A DNA stretch of 64,000 nucleotides from Sulfuricurvum sp. (GTDB lineage: Bacteria; Campylobacterota; Campylobacteria; Campylobacterales; Sulfurimonadaceae). The position numbers and the translations under genes are program-made. Under the pieces are notes generated by a model. It did no database searches and was not told where the DNA came from. It saw only the letters and a program-made list of their open reading frames with translations. This document shows positions 34,120 to 43,478 of the stretch, in pieces; the first letter of the stretch is position 1; each line of letters begins with the position of its first letter. The stretch is from positions 1 to 64,000 of the forward strand of contig JAUYAU010000004.1 in NCBI GenBank assembly GCA_030693335.1, given 5' to 3'.

Positions 34120-34294
34120 ACATACAAATAACAAACGTCAAGAGAGAGGTAAAAATAAATGAGATACAATAAAAATAAATACTGATCTTAATTTCTTTTT
34201 AATAATGTTAGGAATAAACTCATAGTAGTTGTGCTCATTCTCATTTAGCATTGGTTGAGTAGGGCTTTAAAAAAGAGTCTTTTGGTCGATAGTG

Positions 34295-34300
34295 TATAAT
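34295..34300 (+). promoter_or_regulatory. Probable -10 box of the toxin-antitoxin genes
   Basis: TATAAT 78 nt ahead of the antitoxin ATG. The leader of about 70 nt between has room for an operator, as expected if the antitoxin represses its own operon; no clear palindrome was assigned. Confidence 0.45.
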
Positions 34301-34377
34301 TAGTGAATATTGGGTTTACGCATACATGCTACCGAGCCCAAATTGTGTAGTGCCCTAAAAATCCTTAGGAGGATGTG

Positions 34378-34635
34378 ATGAAAACGTTAACACTCAAAAT
34401 AGAAGATTCAGCAGTGGATAAGGTGATGTGGTTTTTGGAGCATCTCAAAGATGTTGTAACGATTGATACCGCACACGTCCATAAACACACAGATGAGTTT
34501 GATTTAAATGATGATCCTTTGGCGCAGGAACTCAAAAAGCGTATCCAAGAGATCGATGATGGAACAGTAGAATTGATACCTCATGCAGAGGTAATGCGCA
34601 AAGTTTATGCGAAATGGGAACAAAAATGTACGTAA
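34378..34635 (+). CDS. Type II antitoxin, RelB/ParD-like
   Basis: An 85-residue acidic-to-neutral protein directly ahead of a ParE-type toxin gene. N-terminal MKTLTLKIEDSAVDKVMWFLEHL is a likely DNA-binding/dimerising part, and the C-terminal half (DDPLAQELKKRIQEIDDGTVELIPHAEVMRK) is the sort that wraps around a RelE/ParE toxin. Start set at ATG 34378, with TAGGAGG 5 nt upstream; a GTG 3 nt earlier is also in frame. The toxin start lies inside its last codons. The antitoxin probably represses the pair. Family placement is by context and pattern. Confidence 0.75.
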   Translation: MKTLTLKIEDSAVDKVMWFLEHLKDVVTIDTAHVHKHTDEFDLNDDPLAQELKKRIQEIDDGTVELIPHAEVMRKVYAKWEQKCT

Positions 34636-34910
34636 ATACATCTTATCGATACGAAATCGAGTTAAATAATATACTTGATTTTATTGGTGAGAATAATCCG
34701 AGAAATGCTTTAAATTTTGCAAGAAAGTTAGAAGCTAAAATCAATGATTTACCTCATTTTCCCTACAAATGCCGACAATCTCAAAAGTCCATGGATACAA
34801 ATATCAGAGAGCTGATATTTGAGGGGTATATTATCCCTTATCGTGTGGATACTCTCAAAGAGAATATAGTGATACTCGGTATTTTTAGCGAAAATGAGTG
34901 GAAATTATGA
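34626..34910 (+). CDS. Type II toxin of the RelE/ParE superfamily
   Basis: A 94-residue protein starting MYVNTSYRYEIELNNILDFI, the typical ParE/RelE opening, with the basic core KCRQSQ near residues 47-52 and the closing strands IRELIFEGYIIPYRVD and ENIVILGIFSENEW. ParE toxins act on DNA gyrase and RelE on ribosome-bound mRNA; which applies is unknown. ATG 34626 overlaps the antitoxin stop by 10 nt; an in-frame ATG at 34614 is an alternative. It ends 31 nt ahead of the large surface-protein gene. Confidence 0.78.
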   Translation: MYVNTSYRYEIELNNILDFIGENNPRNALNFARKLEAKINDLPHFPYKCRQSQKSMDTNIRELIFEGYIIPYRVDTLKENIVILGIFSENEWKL

Positions 34911-34941
34911 TGTGTATTAAATTAATCCCTAGGAGGATGAA

Positions 34942-37773
34942 ATGAATTTTAATAAACTTTTTTTACGATGGATAGCAGTTTTTGGAGTAGCAGTAATGTT
35001 TGCTGTGCCGGGATGGGGGGATGTATATACTGATACAACTAATGCTTTCCCTTCGTGTACTACAGATACAAATAATATTAAGGTAATCGACTTAAATTCT
35101 TCTGCCGGGTATTCTGCACATACGTTGACGGGTATAGTGGATGAAAATAATGCCCCTATAGATGTGTTTATATTAAAAATTACAGAAGACCTAAATATTA
35201 GCTATACGATGTCAAATACCGGTAACGATGACCTTAAAGTAGATGCGAATAATACGTGTAATGCTGCATCTGCAACTACTCTCTTGCCCTCTGCGGTGAG
35301 GACGGGTACGATTAATATAACAGCATCACAAGCAAGCCCATATTATTTATATCTGTATCTTGAAAGTATAGAAAAGAATCAAGATACTACGTATACTATT
35401 CAGATCGGTATTCTTTCAGGGGGAGGAGTAGTTGTTCCAGTTGGCACAACCGCGGATTTCAATGTTGTTTACGCCACAAATGCGAATGGCGCTTTAAGCT
35501 CAGGCTACAACTATAATCTCCCTACAGCAATAGCATCAAGAGCGGATGATTACAAAGTGATTGCTTTAAATACGGGTACAGATATTTTAAAAGATATGAA
35601 TACAACGGTGGCAGTTGAGTTGGTGGACGCGAGTTCAGGTATTTGTTCCACACATACTCCTATATCGAATGTAAAAACATGGATTCCTTTTAATAAACTC
35701 CCTACAGCTAATTTTAGTGCAGCGGACATAATCAAGGGTGTGATATTGGATGATCCTCAAGCTGCAGTAAAGTTTTATCAAAAAGCGGGCAAAAATGTAA
35801 AATTCAGGGTCAGTTACCCCAATGATGGGAGTGGTGGTGCAATCGTGATGCAGGAAACTGTACCCGGAAAATTCCATCTTATAAATTTCCCATCGTATGC
35901 AGGCGATACATGTGTTTATCCTGTGACTGCTACTACGTATAACCCGGCAAATGGAAATATTCAGGGAGAAAGCACCTATACCCAAGTCCCACAGGCATGT
36001 GGTAATGCTGGAAATTCTGGAGCATCTGCGCTCACGCAACACGAAGTGAATGTGTGTTTGGAGTGTATCTATGGAACCAGCGTCAATTATGTATGTTCAA
36101 AAGACAACTTTGCGATTAGGCCGGAAGCATTTCATGTAAAATTGAGTGACCAAAACCAAACGAATGGTGTCACAAAACAACTGATGAGCAATAATATTTC
36201 GGGTGCAGTTGCTCTGAATCTTGCCAGTGGATACCAGTATTACGCAGAGGTCAATGCTACCAATCATTTTAATAATATTGCTACGTCTGGATACACTACT
36301 ACAGAAGGGTTGGACTCGATATGGACGCCGGGAGGTACAGTTGTAACGGGGTGTAATGACGATACAAATAAGTCATCTGTTTTAAATTTTGTCAATGGAT
36401 TAGTAGAAGCAAATCTTTCAGTCGACCAGGTAGGTAAATACAGCCTCAACATTACAGATGACCAATGGACTAGTGTAGATAGTGATGTGTCTACTATGAC
36501 GCATCATACGTCACCATTTTTCTTATCAGGTACTGATTGTATTCCTAATTCTGCTGTCACCAGTGCTCTTGGTAGCTACAATGGATGTAACATAAGCAGT
36601 AATCATGTCAACAATAATGCGGGTATAACCTATGTAGATATCGGCGTTGAGTATAGACCGTATGATTTTAATCTGACATCGATTCAGATGTCAAGAGGAC
36701 AAAATTTTGCCGGTACCATTATGGGTCAAAACACGTGGACCTATATGAACAGTGTGAATCTGAATGAAAATATGAGTGTCCGCTATTTTGGTCCGATTCG
36801 ACCAGAAGGAAAGACGGGTACTCTTTTGAGCAACTATGTCAATGATTGTTACGCACAGCCGGTCAATATAGATCTCAATCTTACATTTCCAGCCATTGTA
36901 TTGCCGAATTGGAGCTATCGTTTACAAGAAGTAAATGCAACAACCGTTTGGAGAGATACGAATGGAACTTTTGCATTACCGGCATCGAATGTTTTATTCC
37001 CTTTAGTAACGATTCCTCAAACGAGCTTTTTAAAGAATCAAAATGGTTTGTCCGATATGAATTTGTCCCTTAATTTTGATAGAAATGAAACAGTAACGGT
37101 GAATCCAATTACAGTTGGCTTGCAAAATTTTCAAGTCAAGTGTCAAATTTCGGGTAATTGTAGCTCGCGAGCCGATTTTTCGACTGCCCATTTACCCGAC
37201 ACTAATGTGACAACTGATAACAACACGAGATTTTTGTACGGTCGTATTATCCCTCGCGATGTTCGTACATTTGGATCAGGTGCATTTTCAGCCAGTGCAT
37301 GGTACGAGGTATTTAATACTCCTGCCATTGGTACAACGACATTGCCGATAAGTAAAAATGACACTGCGTGGTCTACGAATACATTGCACAGTGATGCAAA
37401 CGATGGGGATGGAAATGTAACTGTGGTGATAACGGGGGCAAATCCTGCAAATGCTGCTGCTGTCAGTGGTGTGGAAACGTATACGTTTGGGGCTGGTTAT
37501 GCTTTGGGCGGATATAAAGCGCATATATTAACGAATCCATGGTTATGGTATGGAACTTCTGCATTGCCGTATCTTGATCCAAATGGACCAGCTCAGGCTG
37601 GTGCAGATAATCTTGATTGTCTAACCCATCCGTGTTTTAATATTAATGTGGTTCCCGCAATTGGTGCAACAGGAAGTGCCAAAGATACCAATGAAGCAAA
37701 TAAAGACAGTAAGCGATCTACAGGAGGGGGAGAATGGCACAGTACGACAGATTATTCTCCGGCGATTCGATGA
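34942..37773 (+). CDS. Large exported surface protein, MshQ/DUF6701-like, with pseudopilin operon
   Basis: A 943-residue protein with a signal peptide (about 1-26) and no further membrane segment. It is rich in Thr, Asn and Ser with scattered cysteines, and looks built of beta domains. DNFAIRPEAF at 388-397 is a motif I associate with DUF6701/MshQ-type proteins encoded with type IV pseudopilins; the C-terminal NPWLWYG (about 865-871) and a later HPCFNI segment recur in large Campylobacterota surface proteins. CCTAGGAGG precedes the ATG. The three pseudopilin genes follow with overlaps, so it is likely displayed at, or secreted with, a pilus-like fibre. An adhesin role is inferred. Confidence 0.6.
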   Translation: MNFNKLFLRWIAVFGVAVMFAVPGWGDVYTDTTNAFPSCTTDTNNIKVIDLNSSAGYSAHTLTGIVDENNAPIDVFILKITEDLNISYTMSNTGNDDLKVDANNTCNAASATTLLPSAVRTGTINITASQASPYYLYLYLESIEKNQDTTYTIQIGILSGGGVVVPVGTTADFNVVYATNANGALSSGYNYNLPTAIASRADDYKVIALNTGTDILKDMNTTVAVELVDASSGICSTHTPISNVKTWIPFNKLPTANFSAADIIKGVILDDPQAAVKFYQKAGKNVKFRVSYPNDGSGGAIVMQETVPGKFHLINFPSYAGDTCVYPVTATTYNPANGNIQGESTYTQVPQACGNAGNSGASALTQHEVNVCLECIYGTSVNYVCSKDNFAIRPEAFHVKLSDQNQTNGVTKQLMSNNISGAVALNLASGYQYYAEVNATNHFNNIATSGYTTTEGLDSIWTPGGTVVTGCNDDTNKSSVLNFVNGLVEANLSVDQVGKYSLNITDDQWTSVDSDVSTMTHHTSPFFLSGTDCIPNSAVTSALGSYNGCNISSNHVNNNAGITYVDIGVEYRPYDFNLTSIQMSRGQNFAGTIMGQNTWTYMNSVNLNENMSVRYFGPIRPEGKTGTLLSNYVNDCYAQPVNIDLNLTFPAIVLPNWSYRLQEVNATTVWRDTNGTFALPASNVLFPLVTIPQTSFLKNQNGLSDMNLSLNFDRNETVTVNPITVGLQNFQVKCQISGNCSSRADFSTAHLPDTNVTTDNNTRFLYGRIIPRDVRTFGSGAFSASAWYEVFNTPAIGTTTLPISKNDTAWSTNTLHSDANDGDGNVTVVITGANPANAAAVSGVETYTFGAGYALGGYKAHILTNPWLWYGTSALPYLDPNGPAQAGADNLDCLTHPCFNINVVPAIGATGSAKDTNEANKDSKRSTGGGEWHSTTDYSPAIR

Positions 37774-38441
37774 TGAAAATTAATACGATGCGTTCTGCGA
37801 TGGCTATGATTGAACTTATTTTTGCCATCGTTATTATTGCCATTAGTGTTATTACTATCCCGACAATGATTACGGTTGCAGATAAAGCGGCAAAACAGAT
37901 CACGGTTGATGATGATGTTATGTCACGTCTTGCAGGATGGACGATTGATAAGTTTCAAGCACGATGGGATCAAAACTATGAAGCCTCTGGAAGTGGTCCT
38001 CTTATAATAGCAGGTGACATTGATATACCTTGTAGCCGTGGTTCGGGAACAGTTTGGTACCGTGATAATAATGATTCAATGATTCAATGCGATGTTGCTG
38101 GAAATTCTCCATCGGTAATTCTTAATCCAGGCGATGGGAATCTTACCAAAGGAATTGAACAGCTTAATGGCGGGAGTGAACCTATAACCATTACTCCTGC
38201 CGGCGGTACTGCATATAATGTTACTGCGACGTATCAAGTGCGTTATGTGACTTCAGCATTAACCAGTACAGTTGGAAATACGGCAACAGCAAACTGGGTA
38301 CTTGGTTCATCAACCAATATGGCTCCTGATGGTTCACTGAATACTCCGACACACTTAAAGCGTGTTGTCACTCGTTTTCAAAATGCAGCTTTGGGTGTTG
38401 ATACGACACTTACTTTTTTCAAATCAAACAAAGGCAACTAA
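37734..38441 (+). CDS. Pseudopilin / type IV prepilin-like protein 1
   Basis: A protein of 235 residues (or 223 if starting at ATG 37770). It has a class III signal: SAMAMIELIFAIVII, with Glu at position +5 of the mature protein, Met at +1 and Ala at -1, followed by a long hydrophobic helix. Ala before the cut is common in Campylobacterota. The ATG at 37734 has a very strong AGGAGGGGGAGA and overlaps the large gene by 40 nt; the ATG at 37770 sits in an ATGA overlap with its stop. The globular part (GTVWYRDNNDS and so on) fits no family I know. Confidence 0.72.
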   Translation: MAQYDRLFSGDSMMKINTMRSAMAMIELIFAIVIIAISVITIPTMITVADKAAKQITVDDDVMSRLAGWTIDKFQARWDQNYEASGSGPLIIAGDIDIPCSRGSGTVWYRDNNDSMIQCDVAGNSPSVILNPGDGNLTKGIEQLNGGSEPITITPAGGTAYNVTATYQVRYVTSALTSTVGNTATANWVLGSSTNMAPDGSLNTPTHLKRVVTRFQNAALGVDTTLTFFKSNKGN

Positions 38442-39380
38442 ATGAAGAACATGCAATTTAGAAATGCCTTTTCCATGATAGAGCTTCTCTTTGTTATTGT
38501 TATTATGGGAATCGTTGGGGGGATAGCCCTCGAAACAATTCGTCAATATTATGAAAATATCTATCGAACCCAAGAATACACGAAACGAGTCTCTCAAGCG
38601 GACCACATTTTGGATCAAGTAAGTAAGTATTTTGAAAATGCAATTAGCAGTTCCATTGTAAATTTGGATCGTGGAACAAATACGGGTTGTTATGGTCCAC
38701 CAATAGATGGAGATACCAATGATTATACGATAGCTTTCGTAGCACCAGATCAAGATACTTTACGAGTAGTAGGAACTCCTGGTTGGAGTGAAGATACGCT
38801 TTTAATGCCCAATAATGAGCTTAATGCGTCGGATGCCAATTATGCTGTGGCTAATACTGTTATTACGGCATTAGGGTCAACGCTTAGAAATTCTGCTATT
38901 TATGATCATGAAAGTGCTAACATAGGAGCTTGTGCTCGTTTTAATTGGGATGATGCAGGAGCTGCTGGTGGATACCCAGGGTTTCATAAGCTTGATGTTG
39001 CTGCGAATCCTATCAGTTCCACGACAATACGCTTGAATGCTGATAATTTGGCCAATGATGGAAAACGAAAGTATCTTTTGCGAACAGGATATGCGTTTAG
39101 AGTACAAGACAATGGTAATTTCACGATGTACAGTAATTTCCGTCCATGGGCAAATCAACGGTATACGGCTGCGACTAAAATTAATGTCTTAGGCGAAAAA
39201 GTTGCTCACTTTTATGCGGATTATGACGCGACTGATTTTATGGCCAATGACAATTTGAATGATCGTGGTTTAGTGTGGAGATTAAAAGTATGTATGCAAG
39301 GACTAGATGCAGATCTGAATGATTCTATTGCAGAAACTCAGACAATCTGTCGTGAAAGGAGAGTGCATGTACGCTACTAA
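38442..39380 (+). CDS. Pseudopilin / type IV prepilin-like protein 2
   Basis: A 312-residue protein starting MKNMQFRNAFSMIELLFVIVIMG: prepilin cut expected between Ala9 and Phe10, Glu14 at +5, and a long hydrophobic helix, then a large globular part. Longer than major pilins, so more like a minor pseudopilin (PilW/GspJ size class). Starts directly after the stop of the preceding gene. No recognised family for the globular part. The next gene starts within its last codons. Confidence 0.72.
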   Translation: MKNMQFRNAFSMIELLFVIVIMGIVGGIALETIRQYYENIYRTQEYTKRVSQADHILDQVSKYFENAISSSIVNLDRGTNTGCYGPPIDGDTNDYTIAFVAPDQDTLRVVGTPGWSEDTLLMPNNELNASDANYAVANTVITALGSTLRNSAIYDHESANIGACARFNWDDAGAAGGYPGFHKLDVAANPISSTTIRLNADNLANDGKRKYLLRTGYAFRVQDNGNFTMYSNFRPWANQRYTAATKINVLGEKVAHFYADYDATDFMANDNLNDRGLVWRLKVCMQGLDADLNDSIAETQTICRERRVHVRY

Positions 39381-39822
39381 ACGATCTGGTTTTGCGATGA
39401 TAATGGCAATCTTTGTCGTTGTATTGATTGCTATGGGCGGTGTTTTACTAATGCGTGGCGGTGCACAAGAGAGCAAAGCTGTGGGAGATAATTATTTACG
39501 GGCGCAAGCGCAGTTATTGGCAAAAAGTGCTACGGAATATGCAGTTATGCGTGCACAAGGTTTTAATACAGGCGGAGGGAATTGTCTTAATCAGCTTGAC
39601 ATTGCCGTAAATGACGCGAGTGGCGGAAACATGTTTAATATAAATGTTTCGATGCAATATTCATTTCGTGGGAACTCACCATGTGGAGCTGCAGGGACTC
39701 CCGGTGTACTTGCAACTAATACGAATAAAGAGACAACGATGCTGATGGATGTTACGGTTACGGATAATAATATATCTACTGAACCGATTCGTGTTCATGA
39801 ACGAAGCTGGCAAGTTTTATAA
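39367..39822 (+). CDS. PilX/GspK-like minor pseudopilin
   Basis: A 151-residue protein starting at ATG 39367 (AAAGGAGAG just upstream) with MYATKRSGFAMIMAIFVVVLI. Gly8 before Phe9 is the classic prepilin cut site, but position +5 is Met instead of Glu, as in GspK/PilX-type tip subunits. The following ALLMRGGAQESKAVGDNYLRAQAQLLAKSA-like helix (residues about 28-55, with QAQLLAKSATEYA) is the PilX hallmark. It overlaps the previous gene by 14 nt and ends the operon, before a bidirectional terminator. Confidence 0.75.
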   Translation: MYATKRSGFAMIMAIFVVVLIAMGGVLLMRGGAQESKAVGDNYLRAQAQLLAKSATEYAVMRAQGFNTGGGNCLNQLDIAVNDASGGNMFNINVSMQYSFRGNSPCGAAGTPGVLATNTNKETTMLMDVTVTDNNISTEPIRVHERSWQVL

Positions 39823-39841: not shown

Positions 39842-39864
39842 TTTTCCTGTTGTTTACAGGAAAA
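39842..39864. terminator. Bidirectional terminator between pseudopilin and signalling operons
   Basis: TTTTCCTGT (39842-39850), loop TGTTT, ACAGGAAAA (39856-39864), a 9-bp perfect stem flanked by A-rich and T-rich tracts, between the converging PilX-like gene and the response regulator gene. Confidence 0.65.
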
Positions 39865-39873
39865 AAGAAGAAT

Positions 39874-40251
39874 TTAGATAGTCAGTTGAGCAATTTTAGC
39901 AACAACGTCTTTTTCGCGCACAGGTTTCATAAGAAAACCATTGGCACCGCACTCTAGTGCTTCAGTCTTTTTAGTTTCATCGGTAGTAAGAATGATAACG
40001 GGAAGCTGACGGAGGGATTCGTCGGCTCGAATGACTTTAAGCATTTCAATACCCCCCATAACAGGCATAATGATATCGAGCAGGATAATGTCAATGTCAT
40101 CCTGCGCTTTTAGAATACCTATAGCATCAGCTCCATTTTTGGCTTCGACAACTTGGTACACATTCGGGGCTTTCATGAGCATCGTTTTGAGTAGCTTTAA
40201 ATTGATAAAATCATCATCAACTGCGAGTACTTTTAGTTTGTTATCAACCAT
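39874..40251 (-). CDS. Single-domain response regulator, CheY-like
   Basis: A 125-residue receiver domain with the acidic pocket VDDD (Asp12-14), the phosphate-accepting Asp59 in LLDIIMPVMGG, the Thr in ILTTDE and the Lys in FLMKPV. No output domain. It starts 14 nt after the stop of the hybrid kinase gene on the same strand, so it is probably phosphorylated through that kinase or the Hpt protein and acts by protein contact, as CheY does. Confidence 0.9.
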   Translation of the reverse strand: MVDNKLKVLAVDDDFINLKLLKTMLMKAPNVYQVVEAKNGADAIGILKAQDDIDIILLDIIMPVMGGIEMLKVIRADESLRQLPVIILTTDETKKTEALECGANGFLMKPVREKDVVAKIAQLTI

Positions 40252-40265
40252 TTATAATTCCTAAT

Positions 40266-43200
40266 TTAGATAAATTTTTCAAATACAAGACGCAATAGAT
40301 CTTTATTGACGATGTTTTTGATCATCTCATGCACGTACATAGCATCATTTTCGTCTTCTTTAACATTGGGATCAATCAGCATTACCAATGAAATGTCGCT
40401 GTTTTTAGCACGAATTGTATTATACAGTTCTTTGAGGTCGAGTTCTTTTAATGTTTTATCGAACAATGCAACCTTATAGCGTTTACTAGCAATATTTTCC
40501 CGTAATGCAGCTACAGAATCAACACACTCGTAAGTGTATCCCAAATCGTCAAGTATACGACTAAAGAGTTTCGTCTCAAGGGAATTTTGTTTGGCCAGCA
40601 AGACGTCTGCATCATAGGCTGAACTTTTTACTTCAGGCAGTAATTCAATAATATTCGGGATCTCTGGTTCGACCTCATTAACTGCTGCTTCATCTAAAGC
40701 TTCATTGTCATTGATAGTATCAGTAGTCTGTGGAACGGTTTCACTTGCAAGATGTTCTGCTGTTTTTGGTACAACATTGATCTCTACAATTTTATGAGAA
40801 AGGAAATTGTTGAGCAATGAAATGATTTCACTTCTCACCAGCGGTTTCGTTGTATACTCATCCATACCTGCGGCCAAGAAACGTTCACGGTCACCTTTAA
40901 GGGCATTTGCCGTCAAGGCAATAATCGGTATGTGATGCTGATCGTAATCGGCTTCATAATCAAGAATCTCTTGTGTTGCTTCAATACCATCCAGTACAGG
41001 CATCTGGATATCCATAAAGATCAGATCATATTGGTTATTTTTACGTTTTTCAAAGGCTTCCAAGCCATTATTGGCAAGGGTGACTTGCAGTCCAATGTCT
41101 TCGAGTGTGCGACGAATAAGTTTTTGGTTGATGATGTTGTCTTCTGCTACAAGAACAGATGCTTCAAAACGTGAGTTCTTTTCATCGAATTTTTTACGAC
41201 GCGATGATTTTTGTTTTCGATTATTGAATGCTTCTATGTCATATGTTTCTAATACGGTACGAATTTTACTGCTGTTGACCGGCTCATAAAGGACTTTGAA
41301 AATATCCAGACCCATAGAGTCGATTTTTTTCATGTAGTACGATTTTGTAATAAGGACCAATTGCTCTTGAGTTGCTGAAAATTGTACTAAATCAACATCA
41401 TTTGTGTAATCGTTATCGACAAATAAAAGGTCATAATTGACTTGACGTTCAAGGAGTTTAAGCTCTTCGACATCATGGAATGTGGTATAACTGACACCAA
41501 AATAATCCAGATATTCTTTAAGATAGGTGGATTGTGTTTTCTTCTTGCTTCTGCTTTCGTGGATAACGGCATTAATATTTGAAAAAGAACCTTTGACCGG
41601 GTCATTTAGAGTCTCGATTTCTTCAAACGAGAGGGTAAAGAAGAACATGGTTCCATCACCTGGAATACTTTCAAGATCGAGTTGTCCTCCCATAAGTTCG
41701 ACAAAACGACTTGAAATGGTAAGTCCAAGACCTGTTCCGCCATATTTACGAGTAATGGAGGTATCTGCTTGAGAAAAGGCTTCAAAAATACGAGATTTTT
41801 GCTCACTTGTTACCCCGATACCGCTGTCTTTTACCTGAAAGCGTACGCGTGCACGATTTGGCTCGTCACTCTCGATTCGGCGTACATCAACATTGACGCT
41901 TCCGCCTGCATTGGTGAATTTAACGGCATTACTGAGAAGATTAATAATGACTTCTTTGATCTTGGTCGGATCTCCTTTGAGAGGGCGCTCAAGGCTAGGA
42001 TCAATGAAGCATCCAAGGTCAATGTGTTTTTCAGAAGCACGTACGGCATAAACATCCACGGCACTTTCAAACTCTTCAAGCGGATTAAAGGCGATGTCTT
42101 CGATTTCAAGTTTGTTACTCTCAATTTTTGAAAGGTCAAGAATATTATTGATGATCTCAAGAAGGTTTTCCGAACTTTTTTCGATGATATCAATAAATTC
42201 ACGCTGTTCATCATGCAGTTCGGTATCTTTGAGAAGTTCGGTAAATCCGACAATACCATTGAGTGGGGTACGGATCTCATGAGACATATTGGCCAAAAAC
42301 ATGGACTTGGCTTCACTGGCCTCTTGCGCAGATTGCTTATCACCCATGGTTTGCTCAATGATACGCTCAAGAAGAGCATAGGCTTGGGCTGTACCATCGG
42401 CAGTATCAAGGTTGATTGATTTACTGAGTTCATCGGCTTCGTTATCGTGTGTATCTTCGGCAACACGCTTGAGTACGGACTCAAGATTTTTGATGTTTTT
42501 CGCGATTTCATTGGAAAGCAACATTCCCAAAATACCAATCAAGATAGAGACGATCCATACGGTAATGGCAGTGATAAGAAACTGGATTGCTTGCGATTTA
42601 ACTACAGAAGCTCTGTTGTCCATCGAATCCAGGATGAGTTTCTCACCCTCATTGAGTGCACTAACTTTTTCAGAAATCATTGCAAACCAAATACCGGATT
42701 GCGTATCGTAGTTTCCTTTTGCACTCGAACGTAAAATACTGCCTCTTTCTGTTGTAATATCTTGCAATAACTCTGTATTGTCTTCGGACAGAAGGATGGC
42801 TTTTAGCGTTGTTTGCAACCCTTTGTCTGTTACAGCTTCTAAGTTTAGAGCATCTGCATTACCGATTAAGGTGATCCATTTTTCTAGCTCTTCATCCTCC
42901 AAAGCGTTCCCGCGCGATAGCAAATAGGTTAAATAGTCACGCTCTAAGCTGGTATATTCATTGGCTCGTACCAATGAGAGATAATTGTTTGCCATGGATG
43001 CCACTTTATCATCCAGCAATACGGTTGAAAGAGAAGAGAGCTCTTGAATCAGGGCTTCTTGGGGTTTGCCATAAACGTCATTAAAAATTTCTTCGAAATC
43101 AGCTGATTTGTTGTCTACTGAAGGACGTGCCTGATGGCGTGATTTTTCTAATTCGGTGATAATACCTATAATTTTAGGGGAATGATTGTGGGCAACAAAT

Positions 43201-43478
43201 TTCTTGATTGTACCATCAACGATGGCACGCTGCGCATGCAACGATTTTAAAGTGGCTGCAGAAGCATTCCCGAGATACATCACCGTCATACCACGCTCAC
43301 GCGCAATATCATTGATCATGTAGTTGAGCTGCTTATTGCTCTCTAGTCTGGCTTGGAGCGTCTGAGCTGCTTGGAAGCTTACATAGGATGTGTACACGTA
43401 ATAACTGGCAAGTGAGAATAAGATCAATATCGGGAAGAGACTGATCAGGCGGAGTCGATTTTTAAGTCCTAAATGCAT
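40266..43478 (-). CDS. Hybrid sensor histidine kinase with NIT sensor
   Basis: A 1070-residue membrane kinase. Two membrane segments (about 8-30 and 297-322) enclose a periplasmic NIT domain (nitrate/nitrite-type sensor; conserved [13 protein letters not shown] at about 58-70). Then a HAMP-like linker, HisKA with His400 ([11 protein letters not shown]), an ATPase domain ([24 protein letters not shown]), a degenerate receiver-like segment (about 635-760), a true receiver with Asp823 ([11 protein letters not shown]), and a C-terminal receiver-like segment (about 965-1070, LFDKTL). The signal is not known. Overlaps no gene; 12 nt separate it from the Hpt gene. Confidence 0.9.

Follow-up and report, generated by a model that had tools for sequence, protein, structure and literature searches.

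A Sulfuricurvum operon for the probable tip complex of an MSHA-type pilus bearing a mosaic adhesin

The products of the pilin operon found in the window (the whole stretch of 64,000 nt of Sulfuricurvum sp. DNA that was analysed) most likely form the tip complex of a pilus of MSHA type (T4eP) carrying a modular adhesin. It is best read as a divergent MSHA-type pilus tip with a recombining adhesin, the adhesive role of which we infer. Related sulfur-oxidising bacteria have most likely exchanged the outer part of this adhesin repeatedly, in many cases beside different toxin-antitoxin (TA) pairs. The reading draws on gene content and order, homology, the J-type fold of one minor pilin, linkage to MSHA genes in relatives and the mosaic pattern of the adhesin, all observed here, and docking, location at the tip, adhesion and retraction are proposed by analogy.

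The features of the locus are listed in Table 1. The four genes claimed by the original prediction within 34378-39822 were present at that place, with their starts corrected. For PP3, the list of open reading frames gave a start at 39319, and the conserved ATG with its own Shine-Dalgarno sequence lies at 39367, giving a product of 151 aa. Each pair of neighbouring genes in the module abuts or overlaps. The inverted repeat behind the module, taken earlier for the ending hairpin of the unit, has a T-tail on the minus strand only, and therefore looks more like the terminator of the convergent response regulator gene. The large protein had been called giant; at 943 aa it is the shortest complete member of its family seen (the others range from 1140 to 2706 aa). 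It was correctly noted that no ATPase, secretin or peptidase gene lies near the unit, such genes being located elsewhere in the genome.

Table 1. Features of the pilin operon and its surroundings in the window.
Feature	Position	Strand	Remarks
Conserved leader	34260..34374	+	promoter-like block ending GGTCGATAGT, then TGCTACCGAGCCC...AGGAGGATG (Shine-Dalgarno)
Candidate antitoxin, 85 aa	ATG 34378, stop 34635	+	Unstab_antitox match below threshold
ParE-type toxin, 98 aa	34614..34910	+	PF05016
MshQ-like (divergent DUF6701) tip adhesin candidate, 943 aa	34942..37773	+	Sec-type signal, homologs
PP1 minor pilin, probable I-type	37734 (or 37770)..38441	+	MRSA^MAMIELIF
PP2 minor pilin, J-type (from model)	38442..39380	+	RNA^FSMIELLF, TIGR02532, structure model
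PP3 minor pilin, K-type (predicted)	39367..39822	+	RSG^FAMIMAIF, no Glu+5
Inverted repeat between convergent genes, 9-bp stem	39842..39864	.	terminator-like, minus strand
Response regulator and hybrid histidine kinase	39874-43478	convergent to operon	neighbours of pilin genes

The large protein is composed of a signal peptide, an N-terminal module of ~150 aa, a linker domain of ~190 aa and a DUF6701-like region of ~590 aa, and a search of genome contigs matched it to Sulfuricurvum MAGs with identities of up to 81%. A match to DUF6701 (PF20419), the domain present in the MSHA-pilus protein MshQ, had been expected from Pfam or HHpred. Pfam did not return it for the window protein at E<=1 nor for the 34-member family alignment at E<=0.05, but profile comparison did: the profile of the C-terminal ~590 residues aligned with that of eleven other Campylobacterota DUF6701 proteins over 448 columns (hhalign probability 100, E=1.2e-64). 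Moreover, the homolog in G092 (G092:C1:498603-500216) is matched by the window protein (E=2.6e-41) and itself matches PF20419 above the cut-off (E=4.6e-15). Since homology to DUF6701 was found and the Pfam cut-off was not reached, the large protein is named MshQ-like, as a divergent relative, and its C-terminal ~590 residues are, judging from these alignments, a divergent DUF6701 domain. In the structure model, beta domains follow one another in a chain, with pLDDT mostly between 80 and 95 across residues 170-870. Searching solved structures with the alignment of the large protein returned no hit, and Foldseek and VIA-align on the model gave generic Ig-like matches (Z up to 7.6) and no specific solved relative; because these matches are generic, no function was deduced from the fold.

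The three small genes downstream carry prepilin signals. The sites are RSA^MAMIE in PP1 and RNA^FSMIE in PP2, both with Ala at -1, and RSG^FAMIM in PP3, which has Gly at -1 and lacks Glu at +5. The single signal without Glu+5 had thus been rightly recognized, but Ala at -1 had been assigned to one signal instead of two. In PP1, Glu+5 of the prepilin N-terminus is invariant in 33 sequences, and this motif, together with gene order, indicates that PP1 is probably the I-type subunit. PP2 matches TIGR02532 (20.7 bits, cut-off 16.3), and its AlphaFold model (pLDDT 86.9) has an N-terminal helix at 12-65. The nine best structural matches of this model were all minor pilins or pseudopilins, including TTHA1219, EpsJ and XcpW (Z 8.1-9.9), and the first unrelated row appeared at Z 5.0. 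With a modelled pilin helix and GspJ-type globular fold, PP2 is assigned to the J-type minor pilins (GspJ/PilW/MshO class). The PP3 pattern of a prepilin signal lacking Glu+5 also occurs in relatives and is conserved in a 36-sequence family; its match to GspK is weak. A tip-capping subunit without Glu+5 has been described (PMC10191384), and motif and gene order identify PP3 as a predicted K-type capping minor pilin. Pfam searches with the PP2 and PP3 family alignments gave N_methyl and chance-level matches, and nothing more.

In Vibrio cholerae, the MSHA tip genes are arranged as mshD-mshO-mshP-mshQ. As in that tip, a large DUF6701 protein is accompanied here by a J-type minor pilin and one without Glu+5, and MshL, MshM, MshN, MshE and MshG machinery is encoded in this genome. 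Unlike in Vibrio, where it comes last, the large gene is first here; the module is unlinked from the machinery, the DUF6701 region is too divergent for Pfam, and the N-terminal modules, which are Ig, cadherin or DUF11-like in relatives, are exchanged between strains. The MSH model is itself a multi-locus one (PMC6668835), in which linkage between tip and machinery is not a required feature. MshQ is regarded as the putative adhesin of the MSHA pilus, and in V. cholerae its loss lowers surface MSHA, while retraction proceeds without it (PMC7096442); elsewhere its function is listed as unknown (PMC9815625). According to a 2023 review, the MSHA pilus occurs in only a few Proteobacteria (PMC10191384). 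Among the 100 related genomes, which belong to one Campylobacterota order, MshL was above its cut-off in 74. Literature searches on DUF6701 and on Sulfuricurvum/Sulfurimonas pili found nothing direct.

Four secretins are encoded in the genome of the window, together with three GspE/PilB-type filament ATPases, two PilT proteins and one prepilin peptidase (A24). An MSHA-type locus (C11:63-70k) contains an ordered set of genes, namely those for MshL (269.9 bits, cut-off 250.2), an MshM-like AAA protein, an MshN-like (TPR-like) protein, the MshE ATPase and the MshG platform protein. This machinery and the module are on different contigs and show no linkage here. In G115, G027, G291 and G092 (loci L106, L112, L118 and L119), a DUF6701 gene, accompanied by prepilins that belong to the module's families, stands directly beside homologs of this genome's MshL, MshM, MshN or MshE. 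It is this gene order in four relatives, rather than co-occurrence, that connects the module with MSHA. A strong MshL match was found in 53 of the 56 genomes with the module (the other three being fragmentary hits or genomes) versus 37 of the 44 without it, a difference that was not significant (p=0.10). As MshL is nearly universal, co-occurrence serves to exclude rivals instead of proving the link. A pilin pair is encoded on C5, and one of the two shares 70% identity across 56 aa with a prepilin inside the G055 module, which makes these two pilins the best candidates for major pilins. Apart from these systems, a small contig of the same genome (C4) bears a short secretin of 438 aa between two unknown proteins, 327 and 423 aa long (L049:7191-10789), a set reminiscent of that for filamentous-phage assembly.

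The GspJ fold of PP2, and a PP3 that lacks Glu+5 as a K subunit does, recall GspI-GspJ-GspK of type II secretion systems. PP1-3 might thus be accessory I-J-K pseudopilins of the T2SS with GspD, GspE, GspF and GspG that this genome holds, and the large protein its cargo. A similar DUF6701-pilin module indeed adjoins GspD/GspE homologs of a T2SS locus in G301 (L117), the only such case seen. However, the T2SS of the window genome is a separate locus (C14:192-202k) equipped with its own pseudopilins (C14:192-194k), an ortholog of its GspE is missing from 24 of the 56 genomes with the module, and the relatives of the large protein are DUF6701 proteins sitting with MSHA genes. The T2SS explanation is therefore considered unlikely, and the secretion tip with cargo suggested at the outset was not upheld.

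The module could also be the tip set of a third, divergent type IV filament locus (L044, C14:287-296k), although we regard this as very improbable. That locus is located on the same contig, its secretin resembles MshL, and it is enriched in genomes with the module (12/56 vs 2/44, p=0.02 uncorrected). The locus, present in only 14 of 101 genomes (window genome included), is nevertheless missing, like its ATPase, from 44 of the 56 module genomes; it has four N_methyl pilins of its own (at least four prepilins), and the weak enrichment is explained by patchy spread within the genus. Least credible is a PilC/PilY1-type tip adhesin of a classical T4aP. The same logic is proposed to apply there, with minor pilins that bear a large, modular adhesin which is not itself a pilin (PMC10191384), but no sequence relation was found. 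Neither the window protein nor the 34-member family has a PilC/PilY1 domain among its Pfam matches, and the secretins of this genome all stay below the PilQ cut-off, while one reaches that of MshL. In the model of the large protein, beta/Ig-like domains are visible, with no specific fold match.

Taken together, the hhalign match to DUF6701, the gene order and the J fold support the earlier proposal of an MSHA-type minor-pilin/tip set, here accompanied by a large DUF6701/MshQ-like protein. Adhesin-like Ig, cadherin, Calx-beta, CshA and DUF11 repeats in relatives were also counted in favour of the MSHA-type tip; the missing Pfam hit, the unlinked MSHA locus, orphan DUF6701 genes and the neighbourhood in G301 were counted against it, as were the non-significant co-occurrence with MshL, the assignment of PP1 and PP3 by motif and order, and the V. 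cholerae results on MshQ. In such a tip, the large protein would be exported by Sec, and PP1, PP2 and PP3 would be cut, as I, J and K minor pilins, by the single prepilin peptidase of the genome. The minor pilins would form an initiation complex and so start assembly in an MSHA machine (MshL-M-N-E-G) whose genes lie elsewhere, with PP3, lacking Glu+5, capping the filament. The large protein would dock to them through its conserved C-terminal end and be carried out at the tip as MshE pushes it through MshL. Its outward N-terminal and middle modules could then contact surfaces or neighbouring cells, and PilT would retract the pilus and pull the cell in. Recombination would replace the outward modules, whereas the docking end would keep its fit to the pilins.

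Relatives of the large gene were detected in 56 of 100 related genomes, some from other families of the order. Within the genus, 36 of 40 genomes have it, the G039 copy being a 41-residue remnant. We inspected 41 loci, namely the window and 40 relatives. In 38 of them, beyond what chance would give, the large gene is followed by the same pilin families, which agrees with the predicted conserved order around a variable protein part, here that of the adhesin. The three exceptions are G032 (57% complete), G092 and the second G007 copy (pilins upstream). Separation of the large gene from the pilins, named beforehand as evidence against the prediction, was confined to this minority and to some DUF6701-type orphans without adjacent pilins in other families (L053, L088, L104, L105, L107 and L115). 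Across the genus, the module occupies a fixed site, with recG and hpf (opposite strand) on one side and the convergent response regulator and hybrid histidine kinase genes on the other. The fixed site and the shared order show that the operon is core rather than recent cargo. The idea of recently gained or exchangeable cargo is consequently not supported for the whole unit; exchangeability holds for the N-terminal/middle part of the adhesin and for the TA pair. The convergent neighbours, a single-domain response regulator and a hybrid histidine kinase of 1070 aa, occur in nearly all genomes of the genus and might regulate the operon.

A new finding, made by comparing sequences, is that the adhesin is a mosaic, in which the last ~190 residues track the pilins and the middle and N-terminus are exchanged independently. 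The C-terminal ~590 residues have a near-constant length across copies, and the part before residue 160 extends from 159 residues in the window to about 1180 in complete copies; the repeats found in relatives occur in varying combinations. In 18 genomes, identity of the last ~190 aa followed that of the pilins with a Spearman rho of 0.53, and for residues 350-739 the value was 0.00; the genome pairs are non-independent, so that the p value of the correlation should not be taken at face value. Between the window and G030, identity is 78% for the pilins, 77% for the end and 23% for the middle. With G033 the values are 69%, 85% and 83%, respectively, and the N-termini are clearly dissimilar. An AGLYWQG/GAWxLVVVY domain present in many relatives is missing from the window protein. 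Minor pilins are fixed and outer modules swapped in this divergent MshQ family, so that its last ~190 residues probably serve for docking and the other part probably faces outside, a split through which domain swaps could probe the function of MshQ.

The large gene is normally preceded directly by a leader, for which an alignment was obtained across about 20 genomes within the genus. Its TTTAAAA...GGTCGATA block and the following TGCTACCGAGCCC...AGGAGGATG are strongly conserved, and a matrix trained on the leaders of relatives scored 26.3 at the window leader, the next best score in the scanned own sequence being 12.3. In the window, the leader with its Shine-Dalgarno sequence now precedes the antitoxin candidate, which occupies the position of the large gene in TA-free relatives, and the large gene has a near copy, CCCTAGGAGGATGAA, in front of it. 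Given this arrangement, the TA pair is probably transcribed from the adhesin's own leader. The toxin matches PF05016 (E=3.1e-10, 40.9 bits, cut-off 23), and the antitoxin candidate matches Unstab_antitox with 20.3 bits, below the cut-off of 23.3.

The leader is possibly a sigma-28-type promoter with a 5' UTR element. Its block ends in G[T/C]CGATA, FliA (sigma-28) is present, and a CGATAT box lies upstream of 2/3 flagellin-type genes. As a FliA promoter it is a weak lead, since the genome-wide pattern count equals the control (19 vs 19) and the leader matrix misses flagellin promoters. A riboswitch was unsupported, as Rfam gave no match to the leader and no consensus RNA fold was found for it.

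Unrelated toxin-antitoxin pairs recur at the 5' side of the adhesin gene, which is a new observation. The gap from hpf to the large gene measures 128-311 nt in 18 genomes and is expanded in the window (ParE-type), G033 (MNT/HepT and YafQ), G005 (YafQ) and G029 (MNT/HEPN). An MNT/HEPN pair lies just 5' of the adhesin gene in G012, and DUF2442, MNT/HEPN and YafQ precede the second adhesin gene in G007. Except in G007, no such insertion was found at the recG-hpf and pilin-regulator junctions. In total, pairs of the ParE-type, YafQ, MNT/HEPN and MNT/HepT kinds stand beside the adhesin operon in 7 of the 41 loci, mostly in the gap between leader and adhesin gene (window 34135-34941; L051, L069, L076, L082, L087 and L063). 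Tentatively, the adhesin may be a recombining surface antigen, the N-terminal/middle cassettes of which are swapped while the last ~190 residues remain fitted to the pilins; the TA pairs would ride along and might stabilise alleles by addiction. That different TA pairs repeatedly stand directly in front of a pilus adhesin gene raises the question whether other surface-antigen loci show the same pattern.

Large adhesin genes also occur in tandem, as two or three copies, in L074 (G043), L080 (G048), L087 (G007), L105 (G124) and L116 (G354). These loci have a single pilin set or no pilin genes, an arrangement that would fit alternative adhesins sharing one tip complex.
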